A DNA stretch of 51,900 nt, from IMG/VR virus record IMGVR_UViG_3300036981_000213, positions 1 through 51,900 of that record. One strand, given 5' to 3'. Within the stretch, counting starts at the first letter, position 1, and every line of letters starts with the position of its first letter. The translations under genes and the position numbers were made by a program. The notes beneath the pieces were generated by a model, which worked only from the letters and a program-made list of their open reading frames with translations, was not told the DNA's origin and did not search any database. Source of the stretch: a virus. Positions 6,252 to 42,227 of this stretch are shown here, piece by piece.

Positions 6252-6806
6252 TCAGAAACGATAAACCAACAGCACGTCGTCAAAGCGACCTTTTACGCCA
6301 CGCAGATCAATCACTTCGCAGTTTGAATGAAGCGCGCGAAGCGAAGGAAGGCTGGATTCAGGACTTAGGATGTCCTCGATGATGTAAAACCCGCCCGCCC
6401 TGACTCGCGGCGACAGCAAGCGAAACGTCGCCTCTTGGTCAGCTTGCATATGGGAACCGTCGTCAATGATGATGTCAAACTTTGCGTCGCCTAGCAAAAC
6501 AATAGCCGCCTGGCTTGTGGCATCTGCCTGAATCACACGGAATCGCGGCGGCTGGAATCGCGACGTGTCAAACACCACGGAAATATCGACGCCGGTTATG
6601 GTGCAATCCTGCCCAAAGTATTCGCCCCACAAATCCAACGACTTTCCTGATGCCAGTCCTATTTCCAAAACGTCAGCAAAGTCCCGATACGGCGCAAGCA
6701 GGCGCTCGTATGATTCAATGTAGGAGTGCGTTGATCCCTTGTCATTATGCCCGGCATCGCTTCCGAAGTGCCCGATGCGCGTAAAGATGTCAGCTAGTGA
6801 TTCCAT
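6252..6806 (-). CDS. Class I SAM methyltransferase (small-molecule/sugar type)
   Basis: This is a 184-residue Rossmann methyltransferase. The opening G-H-F-G-S-D-A-G-H-N-D-K-G-S-T-H-S-Y is typical of macrocin-O-methyltransferase and cephalosporin-hydroxylase-like enzymes of glycan and antibiotic clusters. Motif I is V-L-E-I-G-L-A-S-G-K-S, an acidic loop I-T-G-V-D-I follows, and F-D-I-I-I-D-D-G-S-H-M is the metal/acceptor region. It overlaps the preceding gene by 13 nt. The likely role is O-methylation of a sugar on a glycan or on a virion protein; the acceptor is unknown. Confidence 0.85.
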   Translation of the reverse strand: MESLADIFTRIGHFGSDAGHNDKGSTHSYIESYERLLAPYRDFADVLEIGLASGKSLDLWGEYFGQDCTITGVDISVVFDTSRFQPPRFRVIQADATSQAAIVLLGDAKFDIIIDDGSHMQADQEATFRLLSPRVRAGGFYIIEDILSPESSLPSLRALHSNCEVIDLRGVKGRFDDVLLVYRF

Positions 6807-8256: not shown

Positions 8257-8942
8257 GCCAGCGCCGCCTCCAGATTCTTTCGGATGTCGTCATTCAACCC
8301 GCCCCACGAATACGACTGATGCACGAACGGAACACCCAATTTCTCGTCCGTGTTCTGCCATTGAACCTTGCTCCGGTGAAAATACCACAGCCAAGCGCCG
8401 ATGACGTTCCACTCGCTAAACTCATGCCCAGGCTGCGCGATGATGTAGCTTTCCAAGCTCATGCCGTGTCTCTGCCAAAAGAACTCGCGCAACCCTTGCA
8501 ACATCCACCGTTGAACGCTCAGCGGATGCCGCCGCATGAACTCGTATTCTGGCAGAATCCCAATGGCTTTCTCCACCACCTTGCGCCATGTCATCGTGTT
8601 CGGATCGTTCAGGCTGGCGTATGGCGTGTAAAGCCAAGGAGCGAACGCATCGCCAGCCGAGATTGTCCGAGTGAAGATGGTGTCGCTATCCATGCAAAGG
8701 AAAACGTCAGCGTCGGAAAAGCAGTCCGCGTGCAGCTTGGTCAACTGTTGGTGCATATATCCATCGCATCCCTCATGCACGAAGAACACCTTTTCAACGG
8801 GTCCGGTCGGTGGCGTTTGTCCGCTCGGAACCACCACGATTACGTTTCTGAATCCGGTGGCGAATCGTTGGATGGAGCGGAGACAGAATTTCAACCACTC
8901 GAAATCCTTTTCGTAAGAGCGTATGAAGATATCGCAGGTCAC
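8253..8942 (-). CDS. Glycosyltransferase-like protein (DUF6492 type)
   Basis: This is a 229-residue protein. It starts C-D-I-F-I-R-S-Y-E-K-D, the opening of DUF6492/GT-A-like proteins, followed by V-I-V-V-V-P-S-G and the metal/nucleotide motif C-M-D-S-D-T-I-F (DxD = D-S-D). A later E-W-N-V-I-G-A-W and a final S-Y-S-W-G-G are typical of the same group. ATGA overlaps link it to both neighbours. It is likely a cytoplasmic transferase that adds a sugar in the cassette; donor and acceptor are unknown. Confidence 0.75.
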   Translation of the reverse strand: MTCDIFIRSYEKDFEWLKFCLRSIQRFATGFRNVIVVVPSGQTPPTGPVEKVFFVHEGCDGYMHQQLTKLHADCFSDADVFLCMDSDTIFTRTISAGDAFAPWLYTPYASLNDPNTMTWRKVVEKAIGILPEYEFMRRHPLSVQRWMLQGLREFFWQRHGMSLESYIIAQPGHEFSEWNVIGAWLWYFHRSKVQWQNTDEKLGVPFVHQSYSWGGLNDDIRKNLEAALA

Positions 8943-9975: not shown

Positions 9976-10284
9976 ATGACAACACACAAAACAGACAGCG
10001 AATGGATTGAGGACGATTCATCACAGGCTAGAGCCAAAGCATTTGATGACGGCGCAAGAACATTCATCACAATCACGATGGACGGTCAGCATTGGGCGCA
10101 GATTGAGTGCGCTCCGATTGGAGGGCTGGTCCTGTATATGCTCCGCGAGCAATCAGCCACTCGTTGGGTTGGCCCTGATACGGACAAGAAGGAGATGACT
10201 GACGAGCAGCGGAAATTGCTGCGAGAATCAGCGATTTCTCTGTTTCGGTCGGCTCCTCGGACTTGCGAAGAATGGATGGGCTAG
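9976..10284 (+). CDS. Possible antisense-oriented small protein (102 residues)
   Basis: ATG 9976 opens a 102-codon rightward frame in the middle of the leftward late unit. The peptide looks folded: D-S-E-W-I-E-D-D start, an I-T-I-T-M-D-G-Q-H-W-A-Q-I strand pair and a charged helix (D-E-Q-R-K-L-L-R-E-S). It begins only 3 nt from the divergent 39-residue peptide and overlaps the 3' third of the leftward zinc-ribbon gene, so at least one of the two predictions may be wrong over 10073-10284. There is no clear ribosome site. If real it would be a moron-type single gene. Confidence 0.4.
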   Translation: MTTHKTDSEWIEDDSSQARAKAFDDGARTFITITMDGQHWAQIECAPIGGLVLYMLREQSATRWVGPDTDKKEMTDEQRKLLRESAISLFRSAPRTCEEWMG

Positions 10285-14340: not shown

Positions 14341-14972
14341 ACGGTTTCCGCGTCCAAAGCCTCAATTTCCTGCCGTTTCCAGCACTTTGTCGGGAAAAGC
14401 GGCATCATTTCCGGCGTCACGCCGCGTTTTAGGTGCTCAATCGGCACCCAAACCTGGGCTTTATTGCTACATTTACACACCGAACAAGCGTGCAGGTCCA
14501 AATCTCGCGTAGTTCCTTCGCCTCCGACAATCGCCTCTACGGTATCGGCCAGTTCTGGGCAATCTCCGCCACACGGCTTGGAGTATCGGGCGTTGCGACT
14601 GCACAGGAAACAGATTTCAGCGCGCCGTTCTGCTTCCGCACGATCCACCGTCTTTCGCCCGCCCACAATGAAGGATGCAAGCACCTTCGTCCCTGCCCAA
14701 ATGTCCGTCCATTGCAAGTCCACCCCGCTGACAGAGATTCCATCGCCGGAACAGAATCGGCGTGCGGTCTGCGGTCCAAGCTGTTCGCAGATGTATTGCT
14801 CGATGTCCGCCTCTGGAATTGACGGCAATCCGTTGGCGGTGCAATAGTCGCGAACCTGCCAAAGCAGCAAATTATAGGTGCCGCTGTTGAAATTGTGGCC
14901 GGTAGTTGGGTGCTTGAACGGGTAGCCGCCAGGCGGAACCATCGTTCTGTTGGTTAGGTTCATCTCATTCAT
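14337..14972 (-). CDS. Cys-rich protein between terminase and portal
   Basis: This is a 211-residue protein. ATG 14972 overlaps the terminase stop (ATGA), so an upstream in-frame opening is not needed. The second half has several Cys pairs (C-F-L-C, K-P-C-G-G-D-C, C-S-V-C-K-C, F-P-T-K-C-W), suggesting one or two zinc sites. The first half contains T-G-H-N-F-N-S-G-T-Y-N-L-L-L-W-Q. Unrecognised family. Its place between TerL and portal suggests a packaging or head-completion role. Confidence 0.8.
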   Translation of the reverse strand: MNEMNLTNRTMVPPGGYPFKHPTTGHNFNSGTYNLLLWQVRDYCTANGLPSIPEADIEQYICEQLGPQTARRFCSGDGISVSGVDLQWTDIWAGTKVLASFIVGGRKTVDRAEAERRAEICFLCSRNARYSKPCGGDCPELADTVEAIVGGEGTTRDLDLHACSVCKCSNKAQVWVPIEHLKRGVTPEMMPLFPTKCWKRQEIEALDAETV

Positions 14973-16783
14973 ATTGCAAAAGCTGCGGTTGAATCTTCGT
15001 AGTCGCCTTCCGTTTCCTCCAGATTCACTTTGTCGGCATGGGTATTCCAAGCGGAAGCATCTACAATGACGCTTCCTCCCGTTGTTCCTGCCGGTTGCAC
15101 GCCCTTCCGCCGCAAATACTCCGCTGCTATCACCGCAGCATCGGCTCGGTCAGGCGATTTATTCTTAGACAGCTTCATCTCGCCCTTTGGCACGACTTGA
15201 ATCTTCGCGCCTTTGGTCTTTTTGTTGCGGCTTGTCAGTTCGGTAATTGTGCCCGCATCGGTCAGCCCTCGAATCTGTCCACCTTCGATAAACCGCCGGA
15301 ACGCATACCATAGCATCGTTACGCGGTTGGCGTAAAGTTCATACCACGTTGTCGGACGATCCGGCGCAATCTGCACTTTTTCAGCGGCCCCGCCAAACTC
15401 GCACGACTGAATCAGCGGACTCCAGCGGCCTGACATGATGCTGAAAAGACCGCCGCCCTCTCCGGTGACATCCATGATGAAGTTCTCCGGCAAGATTGGT
15501 GCGGGGTTTCCGTCCACTCGATACTCCTTGCACATCCGCTCCACGGCATCGCCAATCTGGTAATGAATCCAGCGTTTGTCTTGCGTCATGTCCACCTCGA
15601 CAATCTGCGGGGCAAGAAACTCTAGTCCAGTCACGCCATTGGCGTATTCACCCCAGCGGAACGGGTAGAATACGCGCCTGTCTCCACCCTCGAATGACGG
15701 GTCCAACGTCGCCGCCATCGTCCAGCGCGCTTTCCACACGGCTTTGTCGCGCGTATTGAACTGATTCAGCAACGCCTCGTCCATGACGGTATTGGACAGC
15801 CCGGTGGGTGCCCAAAATCCACGGATACCGCTCCATGCTTCCGGCGAGTTCAGACCGCCAACCTCGCGCGCCTCTTCTTCGAGTGCCTGTTTGTTCGGGT
15901 AGAAGTGAAACCGTTCCGGGTCGCGCATGGCAGGCGAATCGAAGGCGTCGAAGTGAACCGCGCAGCCGTATTTCGTCAGCCAGAACTTGTCTTCCACCGT
16001 GATGCTGTTCCAGCCCGCTAACGGTTCGCTACGTTCGCCGTGCGGGTCGCTCATGCTGATGGCATTGCCGAGTCCGATAAGCTGATACTCCATTGTGCCC
16101 TTGTTCAGATTTCGGCACGCCTTCACGATGGCGTCTGGCACGCTCGTCATCTCGTCAATGATGACAAGGATGCGTTTGGCGTGAATACCTTTGATTCGGT
16201 CGATTGATTCTTGAGGCGAACCGCCGCTTTTCACCGCTACACCGAAGATGCAATGCTTCCGGTCGTTGTCGTTCCAGCGGATTTCCAAGTCGGACGGGAT
16301 AGAGCGCAGCGGCAATTCCTGTGTGCTGTTGGAAATCCACGTCTGGATGTCGCTCCAGATGCGTCGTGCAAGCATGTCCACGCTGGTAGAAGTCAGGATA
16401 CAGGCGGTGCTTTCCTGCGCGCACAGCCAGAAGCACAGCGCCCACATGGCGGCGCGGGCGCTCTTGCCGGTTGATGAAGCGCCAGTGAAGATGGCGTTGC
16501 GCTGCCACGCAATGTCCGACTCGAATACCGTGCCGCTCACGCGCTGTACGGTATCCTTCGCCCCGCACAGTGCGCCAAAATACAGGTCGCTCCATTCGTC
16601 CCAAATGAATATCGGGTCCGGCCATAACTCCGCGACGAGCTTTTTGAACCAGCGCAGCTTTTCCTCCCCTTTCTCCATGCCAAATTGGTATAAAAATAAG
16701 TGCCAGTTTTTCCACTCCTCCGGGAAAATGCAGCCGTGCGCGTAGCGTTTGCCTTTCGGGACTTTTGGCGGCGCGGCGGTCAT
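14969..16783 (-). CDS. terL: Large terminase subunit
   Basis: This is a 604-residue packaging motor. The ATPase has Walker A G-A-S-S-T-G-K-S (residues 101-108) and Walker B R-I-L-V-I-I-D-E (204-211), with an adjacent motif E-M-T-S-V. The C-terminal RNase H-like nuclease is visible as I-M-D-V-T-G-E-G-G-G (first acidic residue) and S-P-D-R-A-D-A-A-V-I-A-A-E-Y near residue 555. It cuts concatemeric DNA and pumps it through the portal. It overlaps the giant-protein stop and the following Cys-rich gene by 4 nt each. The likely small subunit is far away, at 33531-34046. Confidence 0.95.
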   Translation of the reverse strand: MTAAPPKVPKGKRYAHGCIFPEEWKNWHLFLYQFGMEKGEEKLRWFKKLVAELWPDPIFIWDEWSDLYFGALCGAKDTVQRVSGTVFESDIAWQRNAIFTGASSTGKSARAAMWALCFWLCAQESTACILTSTSVDMLARRIWSDIQTWISNSTQELPLRSIPSDLEIRWNDNDRKHCIFGVAVKSGGSPQESIDRIKGIHAKRILVIIDEMTSVPDAIVKACRNLNKGTMEYQLIGLGNAISMSDPHGERSEPLAGWNSITVEDKFWLTKYGCAVHFDAFDSPAMRDPERFHFYPNKQALEEEAREVGGLNSPEAWSGIRGFWAPTGLSNTVMDEALLNQFNTRDKAVWKARWTMAATLDPSFEGGDRRVFYPFRWGEYANGVTGLEFLAPQIVEVDMTQDKRWIHYQIGDAVERMCKEYRVDGNPAPILPENFIMDVTGEGGGLFSIMSGRWSPLIQSCEFGGAAEKVQIAPDRPTTWYELYANRVTMLWYAFRRFIEGGQIRGLTDAGTITELTSRNKKTKGAKIQVVPKGEMKLSKNKSPDRADAAVIAAEYLRRKGVQPAGTTGGSVIVDASAWNTHADKVNLEETEGDYEDSTAAFAI

Positions 16784-37015: not shown

Positions 37016-37084
37016 GACCGCGCCACACCGCGCCCCCGGCAAACCGGAGGCGCGGAAGGCGCGGGCCACTACGGCCCGAGCAAC
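37016..37084 (+). other. Structured intergenic RNA before an AAAACC leader
   Basis: GCGCC-c-CCGG-caaa-CCGG-a-GGCGC (37036-37059) forms a nested hairpin with a tetraloop, and GGGCC-actac-GGCCC (37068-37082) a second one. They sit between the 55-residue gene and the AAAACC repeats that lead into the next start codon. A processing, stability or translation-insulating role is possible. Confidence 0.6.
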
Positions 37085-37114
37085 AAAACCAAAACCAAAA
37101 CCAAAACCAAAACC
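37085..37114 (+). repeat. (AAAACC)5 leader abutting a start codon
   Basis: Exactly five AAAACC units end right at the ATG at 37115. No Shine-Dalgarno site is present. A similar leader (AAACC plus four AAAACC) precedes the ATG at 38882. Such A-rich leaders can promote SD-independent initiation through ribosomal protein S1. Confidence 0.85.
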
Positions 37115-38053
37115 ATGAAACTCCAAACGAAAATCAGCGACCTCACCACCCTCCTCGCGTCCACCGACGCGGCCACCACAGCCGCGCACGATGCCGAGCG
37201 TCTCACCGCAGCCATTGCCACCGGACACCGGGAAAGCGCGATCTCCGCGCTCGACATTAGTCTCGCCAGCCGAGGGGAAGCGAGCAAAGCGGCGGCGCTT
37301 TTCGCGAAGGTGCCGCTGCCCCGGCGCGGACTTGCGAGGGTGACCATGACCAAAGCCGAGCGCTTGGGCAAAGCGGCGGCGAAAAGCGGCGACAGCTACT
37401 CAGGTGAGACGGATTACGCCGCAAAATGGGCGGCCTCTCCCTCCGCATCCACTTACACCGCCAAAGGGGGCCGATACTCTGGGCGCTGCACCTACCAAAA
37501 AACAGATGCCTCCCACGTCGTGCGCCTGTCGCCCGAATGGGCTGTGCTGCTCACAGAGCGCGAGGATGTCGCGTCCCTGTCCGCTCGCGACGGGCTCCCG
37601 CTCATAGGCTGGCATGCCGACGGGCGCGCCTGTTGGGTGCGGACGAAAGGGAAAGCGATCACCGAGGAAATAGGCTGGATTGCCCACTTTGGCACGGTCT
37701 GCTATCATTCCACGAAATCGCAACAGTCAGCAGATCAGGGGTTGAAAATCAAGCTGGCGGCGATGCGCGATGAGTGGGCGGCGCAGGCTGTGGCACGGGC
37801 AAACGCTGCCCAGTGGGCGAAAGACGAGCGCAGGTCGCGGCTGATAGCGCGGCTGTGCGATGTGTCCGCGACCATCGCAGATGCACGGGAGATGGGCTAC
37901 TGCCTCCCCGGCATCGAAGCATTCCAAAGCCAGCACCACATCGGCGACAGCGCCCCGCTACGGGCGCTCCTAGCGACTGGCAACGCCGCCGCCGTCCGCC
38001 TCGCGCTGGCTGTGGCGCGGAAGGTCCGCCGCACCGAAGCCGTCGCCGCTTAA
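37115..38053 (+). CDS. 312-residue phage protein, unknown family
   Basis: Residues 1-60 are a helical Ala/Thr-rich region; about 85-200 form a folded domain with R-C-T-Y-Q-K-T-D-A-S-H-V-V, E-W-A-V-L-L-T-E-R-E, and W-V-R-T-K-G-K-A-I-T. The end is a Lys/Arg/Ala-rich helix (W-A-K-D-E-R-R-S-R-L-I-A-R-L). Related proteins seem to be present on other phages, but no function was recognised. It starts directly after the AAAACC leader. Its TAA (38051-38053) is immediately followed by the hammerhead ribozyme. Confidence 0.8.
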   Translation: MKLQTKISDLTTLLASTDAATTAAHDAERLTAAIATGHRESAISALDISLASRGEASKAAALFAKVPLPRRGLARVTMTKAERLGKAAAKSGDSYSGETDYAAKWAASPSASTYTAKGGRYSGRCTYQKTDASHVVRLSPEWAVLLTEREDVASLSARDGLPLIGWHADGRACWVRTKGKAITEEIGWIAHFGTVCYHSTKSQQSADQGLKIKLAAMRDEWAAQAVARANAAQWAKDERRSRLIARLCDVSATIADAREMGYCLPGIEAFQSQHHIGDSAPLRALLATGNAAAVRLALAVARKVRRTEAVAA

Positions 38054-38104
38054 TGCACTGATGAGTCGGTGAAACCCCGACGAAACCGCCCCGGCGGTCT
38101 GCAT
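38053..38104 (+). ncRNA. Hammerhead ribozyme, type I
   Basis: All core elements are in order. Stem I strand ATGCA (38053-38057); CTGATGA (38058-38064); stem II GTCGG / CCGAC (38065-38069 / 38077-38081) with a 7-nt loop; GAA (38082-38084); stem III ACCGCC / GGCGGT (38085-38090 / 38093-38098), possibly with one closing pair opened; cleavage-site C at 38099; stem I strand TGCAT (38100-38104). The invariant A15.1-U16.1 pair and G10.1-C11.1 pair are present. Both RNA ends leave from stem I, so it is type I. Cleavage would fall between 38099 and 38100, three bases before the next gene's ATG (38103), whose first bases are in stem I. Seen directly in sequence; activity is untested. Confidence 0.9.
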
Positions 38105-38417
38105 GAAAACCAAATCCAATACCACCAAGCCCGCCGGCGGCACGCGACCGGAAGAAATGACGATGAAACAAGTGCGCGATCTCATCCACGCGGAGGCGTG
38201 CAAGTGCGCCGAGAAATGGTTCCCGCTGCAATGCCGGAAGGATTGGTCGTCCTTTTACCTCTATTACCGGACCGGCGAGCTGGACGTGTCCGACGCCGAG
38301 GAGACGCCGTCCGGCTGGACGCTCGCCAGCTCGGAACGGATTAACCCGGCGAGCACGCGCGACCAGGTGGCCGCGAAAATTGCCACCATCGCGCAGCGGC
38401 TGCCCTTTTTGCCCTAA
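38103..38417 (+). CDS. 104-residue protein starting at the ribozyme cleavage site
   Basis: The ATG at 38103 lies in stem I of the hammerhead, 3 nt after its cleavage site, so a self-cleaved transcript would be almost leaderless with a 5'-hydroxyl. The protein has a Lys/Thr-rich start, helix E-E-M-T-M-K-Q-V-R-D-L-I-H-A-E-A-C-K-C, then W-S-S-F-Y-L-Y-Y-R-T-G-E-L-D-V and W-T-L-A-S-S-E-R-I. Compact alpha/beta, unknown family. It ends 4 nt before the next ATG. Confidence 0.8.
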   Translation: MKTKSNTTKPAGGTRPEEMTMKQVRDLIHAEACKCAEKWFPLQCRKDWSSFYLYYRTGELDVSDAEETPSGWTLASSERINPASTRDQVAAKIATIAQRLPFLP

Positions 38418-38843: not shown

Positions 38844-38851
38844 CGAACCAC

Positions 38852-38881
38852 AAACCAAAACCAAAACCAAAACCAAAACCT
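38852..38881 (+). repeat. AAACC(AAAACC)4 leader before a start codon
   Basis: Five near-identical units end one T before the ATG at 38882. When read in frame from an upstream TTG they would encode alternating Lys-Pro, which is an artefact. Same architecture as 37085-37114: hairpin, AAAACC units, ATG, no Shine-Dalgarno. Confidence 0.85.
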
Positions 38882-41536: not shown

Positions 41537-42227
41537 ATTTGTCGGATTTTTGGGAATGAAGGTTTGTTCCGTTTGTGCTGATTGTTCTCGTTTTCTCCAC
41601 AGACCGCAGAAGCCAGCGGTTGAAAAATTGCCGGGTGCATTGTCGGGAATTAGCCGCGCACCACGCTTGAGCCAATCCAAGCTCTTCACGAATTGGGATG
41701 ATCCGGAAACAATCCATTTTCTCCAGACCAGAAATCCATGCGTCATCGGTTTCTGTTTCCGCCTTCCGCCGGACTTTCGCCGCTTTGGGCGAAAGTGCCG
41801 GTGGAGAATCTTCGGAGTTGGAATCGGTAACGGTATTGGAGATAGGAGACGGAGACGGAGACGGAGACGGAGAGTTGACTTTCGGTTGCCCCTCCGGTTC
41901 CCCACTCGGTTCAACCGCGGTTGAACCGCGGTTGAACCGAGCCTGTGCTGACGCCTTCCCTTTTGCAGATTGTTGCGCTCTGTATTCGGCCTGCTTTTCC
42001 CGCTCGCGCTCCATTCTGGCGTTTTTGCCATCGGGAAACTTCGCCATCACGTCCGGACCGACCACGCATCCCGCGATCCTGTCCACCAGCTCTTTACGAA
42101 ACGGAATCGCTCCGTTGCCCCACTGATAGCAGAGAAGCCGCATGTAAGCGCCAACGTCCTCGGCGCTGAAAACCACCGTCCCTCCGATGAAATCGTCCGC
42201 GTAAAATTGAAAAGCCGGTGCCTTCAT
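41526..42227 (-). CDS. DUF1376-like replication initiation protein
   Basis: This is a 233-residue protein. The start A-F-Q-F-Y-A-D-D-F-I-G-G-T-x-x-F-S-A-E-D-V-G-A-Y-M-R-L-L is typical of DUF1376/YdaU-like replication proteins. A disordered linker with four Ser-Pro repeats (S-P-S-P-S-P-S-P), encoded by tandem GGAGAC units at about 41851-41875, leads to a C-terminal helical region (W-C-A-A-N-S-R-Q). It probably binds the origin and partners with the loader gene that overlaps it. Confidence 0.75.
   Translation of the reverse strand: MKAPAFQFYADDFIGGTVVFSAEDVGAYMRLLCYQWGNGAIPFRKELVDRIAGCVVGPDVMAKFPDGKNARMEREREKQAEYRAQQSAKGKASAQARFNRGSTAVEPSGEPEGQPKVNSPSPSPSPSPISNTVTDSNSEDSPPALSPKAAKVRRKAETETDDAWISGLEKMDCFRIIPIREELGLAQAWCAANSRQCTRQFFNRWLLRSVEKTRTISTNGTNLHSQKSDKYGF

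Follow-up and report, generated by a model that had tools for sequence, protein, structure and literature searches.

A hammerhead ribozyme fitted between a stop codon and a putative start codon in a phage genome, and its relatives in other phages

Here we describe an element at positions 38053-38104 of a 51,900-base IMG/VR virus contig (the window, i.e. the whole stretch of DNA that was analysed), which is almost certainly a hammerhead ribozyme under selection. Judged from its sequence, the hammerhead is genuine; it is lodged between the stop codon of one gene and the putative start codon of the next, an unusual arrangement shared by at least two phage lineages. Our preferred reading, to which we give a probability of about 0.6, is that a genuine and probably active type I hammerhead splits the mRNA at this gene junction, and that the downstream mRNA, nearly leaderless, is translated. 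The class core (CUGANGA ... GAA, the A15.1-U16.1 pair and a base other than G at H17) was found at 38053-38104, with stem I open and a loop capping each of stems II and III, as in type I. A preliminary description had assigned the element the same coordinates and the same predicted cleavage position in a phage setting; all three are supported by the analysis. It had also taken the ribozyme to fill the exact space between the stop codon and the ATG, and the ATG to be part of stem I. This layout is right, but the last A of the TAA stop (A38053) already forms the outer end of stem I, and pairing within the ATG is confined to its first two bases, with G38105 lying outside the stem. The parts of the junction are collected in Table 1.

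Table 1. Features of the gene junction and of the ribozyme (window coordinates)
Feature	Positions	Strand	Remarks
Upstream gene, 312 aa	37115..38053	+	ORF; its TAA stop, 38051-38053, runs into the 5' end of the ribozyme
UUAA adjoining stem I	38050..38053	+	Shared with the stop codon; presumed to make the tertiary contacts of loop I
Stem I, 5' strand AUGCA	38053..38057	+	Read directly
Catalytic core CUGAUGA	38058..38064	+	Read directly; invariant among relatives except N7
Stem II, 5 bp (GUCGG 38065-38069 / CCGAC 38077-38081, loop UGAAACC)	38065..38081	+	
Conserved GAA	38082..38084	+	Read directly
Stem III, 5 bp (ACCGC 38085-38089 / GCGGU 38094-38098, loop CCCG)	38085..38098	+	Closed by the A15.1-U16.1 pair
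Predicted cleavage site	38099..38100	+	Between C38099, which we take to be C17 in hammerhead numbering, and U38100
Stem I, 3' strand UGCAU	38100..38104	+	First bases of the predicted 3' product; includes the first two bases of the ATG
Downstream gene, 104 aa	38103..38417	+	ATG 38103-38105, 3 nt past the predicted cut
GC-rich coding stretch	38131..38143	+	Able, in fold predictions, to pair with the stem III region and so disrupt the ribozyme

A descriptor that included all the stems matched only once in the 51.9 kb, at 38053-38104, and even with relaxed stems it found nothing on either strand of 60 dinucleotide-preserving shuffles. A loose core pattern without stems matched at chance level, and thus it is the stems that carry the signal. 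A covariance model was built from nine phage hammerheads of the sub-family with a UGARA loop II, leaving out the window and two further viral contigs, L121 and L127. The model gave the window element 62.6 bits (E 5.5e-18 with 73.7 kb searched), and the elements of L121 and L127 scored 65.0 and 60.0 bits, respectively. A second match in the window, at 10189-10246, was dismissed as noise (14.6 bits, E 0.08, broken pairs). When the element was searched against Rfam, no match reached the gathering level, the scores being 27.2 bits against a gathering threshold of 48.5 for RF00008 (Hammerhead_3) and 18.0-21.8 bits against 56.3 for RF03152 (RAGATH-1-hammerhead). Low scores of this kind, together with core pairs that do not covary in related phages, had been named beforehand as grounds for giving up the claim; the scores were indeed below threshold, but the pairs do covary in relatives. 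In view of these relatives and of the independent covariance model, the sub-threshold scores reflect the Rfam models and not the element.

The 312-aa protein encoded upstream has a single relative among the viral contigs, 74% identical and carried by L121, in which a hammerhead lies directly after the stop of the homologous gene. Comparison of L121 with the window revealed five pairs changed on both sides, one in stem I (G-C to A-U), two in stem II and two in stem III, and no pair was broken.

By its sequence features the window element is to be placed in a large family of phage type I hammerheads. A pattern scan of viral contigs gave at least 119 stretches with hammerhead cores, nearly all of them with good stems, and the UGARA sub-family was gathered by a second pattern scan. 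Besides the UGARA loop II, the family is marked by a stem I of 5 bp with a conserved U-A-A-like triplet immediately 5' of it; among the members listed, position -6, just before the stem, is A in 90% and position -7 is A or T in 97%. Among the 150 family matches listed, 98.2% of pairing cells hold, as against 28-37% in slid controls, and both partners have changed in 13 of the 15 pairs. The alignment was fitted to the model and hence leans towards the structure; gap-free plain alignments show the same pairs. All five pairs of stem I covary across the family, and all three helices are backed by covariation when the L121 comparison and the 150 matches listed are taken together. The identification as a hammerhead, originally made from the letters alone, was thus upheld by the descriptor, by the covariance model and by covariation across the family. 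The window carries the conserved bases both next to stem I and in loop II. Fast cleavage needs loop-loop contacts between helices I and II (PMC6155905), and as Hammerhead_3 has the same UUA/UGAAA combination, we infer from these known contacts that the bases adjoining stem I would dock on loop II.

Several model matches lie within about 10 kb in each of four contigs, L033 (seven), L078 (eight), L167 (six) and L202, which suggests that a single phage may carry ribozymes at many of its gene junctions. In two tRNA-rich phage contigs, one of them 347 kb long, a type I hammerhead is followed immediately by a tRNA-Tyr (L096:6633-6673, then 6674-6756; L088:8399-8442, then 8443-8525). In both, the predicted cut coincides exactly with the tRNA 5' end, and the hammerhead could set that end.

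The overlap of the ribozyme with the upstream stop codon extends well beyond the window. In 43 of the 101 independent members listed (43%), the stop of an upstream ORF lies on the family UAA, as compared to 0.47% at random nearby places, where the frames were open frames of at least 60 codons, not annotated genes, and a stop was counted if it fell exactly on the UAA or, as in the window, one base later. On this comparison stop-codon overlap is a common trait of the family, one which the preliminary description had missed. Among the matches listed for other phage hammerheads, the stop falls at the UAA position in 14% and at the UGA of the core itself in 17%. We found no paper in the open-access literature that describes such overlap, and the term 'stop codon' is absent from the main text of Perreault et al. 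2011 (PMC3088659). On the minus strand of L127, a strong SD motif, CAGGAGG, is followed by a mini-ORF, ATG CGC AAC TAA, immediately ahead of the ribozyme at 2525-2588, and the stop of this mini-ORF is the UAA adjoining stem I.

The distance of 3 nt from the cut to the ATG, also claimed earlier, was confirmed, and L121 and L127 share this layout; apart from methylase-like matches, L127 has no synteny with the window. For most of the family members listed, the next ATG of a frame of at least 45 codons lies 20-40 nt past the cut, and the 3-nt spacing is therefore atypical. An ATG at 3 nt often arises from the structure itself, by an A-U and a U-A pair at the end of the stem followed by G, with no gene behind it, so that its use as a start has to be argued case by case. 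Among the matches listed, only those of the window, L121 and L127 appear to have credible starts at 3 nt. The downstream gene of the window has a third-position GC of 0.82, and its later in-frame ATGs are at 38157 and 38163. The sequence GACGCGCAGCCCGTGCAGGCT is common to the downstream gene of L121 and to window ORF 38422, and in each of them the count from the ATG to this sequence is exactly 14 codons, which supports the start codon in L121. The frame in L127 opens with a Cys-rich stretch that would be lost under a later start. A fourth credible start is possible in L156, the stem II of which is imperfect. The near ATG is an unlikely start in L205, L112 and L027, since mostly the frame is very short or a later, SD-led ATG is present, and ten matches in bacterial or archaeal genomes with an ATG in or near stem I were set aside on similar grounds, mostly a short frame or an SD-led ATG that follows. 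L126 fits the ATG pattern but has no convincing stem II or stem I. For the window itself, the chances that translation of the cleaved RNA begins at 38103 seem to us about even.

The window is likely to derive from a tailed phage, given the terminase large subunit encoded at 14972-16783, the sole clear structural phage hallmark found. The upstream protein matched no PHROG or Pfam family and had no relative in a scan of bacterial genomes, no relatives of the 104-aa downstream protein were found, and neither flanking protein nor the flanking DNA had a match in annotated phages. SD-like motifs were present at 11 of 62 rough gene calls, against 11.3 expected by chance, and initiation without SD thus seems to be normal in this phage. 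Hexamer tracts, (AAAACC)n, occur at or around start codons at 37084-37115 and 38846-38880, and the genes concerned are also devoid of SD motifs. An 11-base unit that looks palindromic, CGGTTGAACCG, occurs three times at 41907-41939.

The element probably processes the mRNA. Under the reading that we prefer, the RNA would fold as the polymerase passes about 38104, the UUA adjoining stem I would dock on the UGAAA of loop II, and the RNA would cut itself after C38099 during transcription, splitting the polycistronic mRNA. Self-cleavage by hammerheads leaves 2',3'-cyclic phosphate and 5'-OH ends. The two mRNAs would then have separate fates: the upstream one would keep its stop codon and carry the ribozyme hairpins and a 2',3'-cyclic phosphate at its 3' end, and the downstream one would begin 5'-OH-UGC-AUG, near-leaderless, with the AUG freed from stem I and translated without SD. 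The junction had been proposed to act as a processing-plus-translation switch; the precedent of the family makes processing the best reading, but nothing was found in favour of a regulated switch. Hammerheads flanking prophage genes cut polycistronic transcripts of ~2 kb in vitro, and one set does so in E. coli (PMC3088659).

Fold predictions impose a condition on this scheme. With 38131-38145 included, the predicted minimum free energy is about -30 kcal/mol as against -16.9 kcal/mol, and no pairing is left in stems I and III, the predictions being of equilibrium folds that ignore tertiary docking. Bases 38131-38143 pair with the stem III region in these folds, and with 38040-38045 included, upstream bases are predicted to compete for stem I. 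Stem I is also predicted to misfold in an RNA of 38030-38130, the stretch proposed for transcription in the preliminary description. As the longer RNAs thus disfavour the ribozyme, cleavage would have to be fast and co-transcriptional. The competing downstream hairpin, which would break the ribozyme unless cleavage is quick, had escaped the preliminary description. In the predicted fold of L121, stem III survives the downstream sequence, and stem I is weak there too. A ribosome terminating or initiating at the junction would also cover the ribozyme.

The ribozyme may be active and yet serve to silence the downstream gene or just to trim the message; the 5'-OH RNA, with its 3-nt leader, would then be a poor template for translation, and the protein would be made from uncleaved RNA or from the ATG at 38157 or 38163. 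We consider this unlikely, but it deserves serious attention, as family members listed usually leave a leader of 20-40 nt, the near ATG is an improbable start in L205, L112 and L027, and in both L121 and L127 a GGGAG within stem III, 5 nt before the ATG, would be stranded across the cut. Against this, the window has no good SD at that place (GGCGG) and its phage shows no SD use, a later start in L127 would cost the Cys-rich stretch, and the position of the first ATG in L121 is backed by the codon count. It is decidedly less probable that cutting is conditional, being decided by the competing downstream hairpin, by the upstream helix or by ribosome traffic from the upstream gene. The strong alternative folds with 38040-38045 and 38131-38143 and the stop codon inside the ribozyme would suit such control; however, downstream sequence leaves the predicted stem III of L121 undisturbed, and a near-palindromic, GC-rich stem III is likely to find chance partners in a GC-rich gene.

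Two further explanations carry very little weight with us. The missing gathering-level match in Rfam would be expected of an inactive relic or a chance resemblance, but the core is intact in three phages, five pairs are compensated in L121, the covariance model gave an E of 5.5e-18 and the shuffles gave none, which makes this reading very improbable. Hammerhead pairs of viroids and retrozymes do excise small RNAs or circles (PMC6155905), and the element could be half of such a pair; only a single hammerhead is present in the 51.9-kb record, and we give this almost no credence.

Among known systems, the type I hammerheads of phages and prophages (PMC3088659) resemble the window element in having the core and three stems with stem I open, in lying between genes on the coding strand and in their presumed role in mRNA processing, but in the window both the stop and the ATG overlap the ribozyme and the leader is only 3 nt. 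In the haloviruses HF1/HF2 a hammerhead (HHphage) likewise lies just before a phage start codon, that of a helicase, and a mapped transcript end falls within 3 nt of the cleavage site (PMC3088659); the distance there is 13 nt rather than 3, the structural variant is another and the host is archaeal. The type III hammerheads of viroids and satellites (RF00008) share the core, the UGAAA loop II and the UUA adjoining stem I, but have an open stem III and belong to replicating RNA, in contrast to the open stem I and phage mRNA of the window. RAGATH-1 (RF03152) aligns across the whole of 38053-38104 with all pairs kept, but model positions 1-25 are missing from the window.

The role of prokaryotic hammerheads is an open question in the field (PMC6155905). 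As a tentative generalisation, about which we are rather doubtful, hammerheads in some phages may be punctuation fused to genes, in which the tertiary-contact UAA doubles as a stop codon and, rarely, stem I holds the next start, so that cleavage, perhaps competing with translating ribosomes, would yield leaderless mRNAs. The precise fit of stop, ribozyme and start, together with upstream stops that are enriched roughly 90-fold at one position of the ribozyme among the members listed, points to processing at gene junctions, and the junction described here offers a compact system for asking whether a phage makes leaderless mRNAs by means of a ribozyme.
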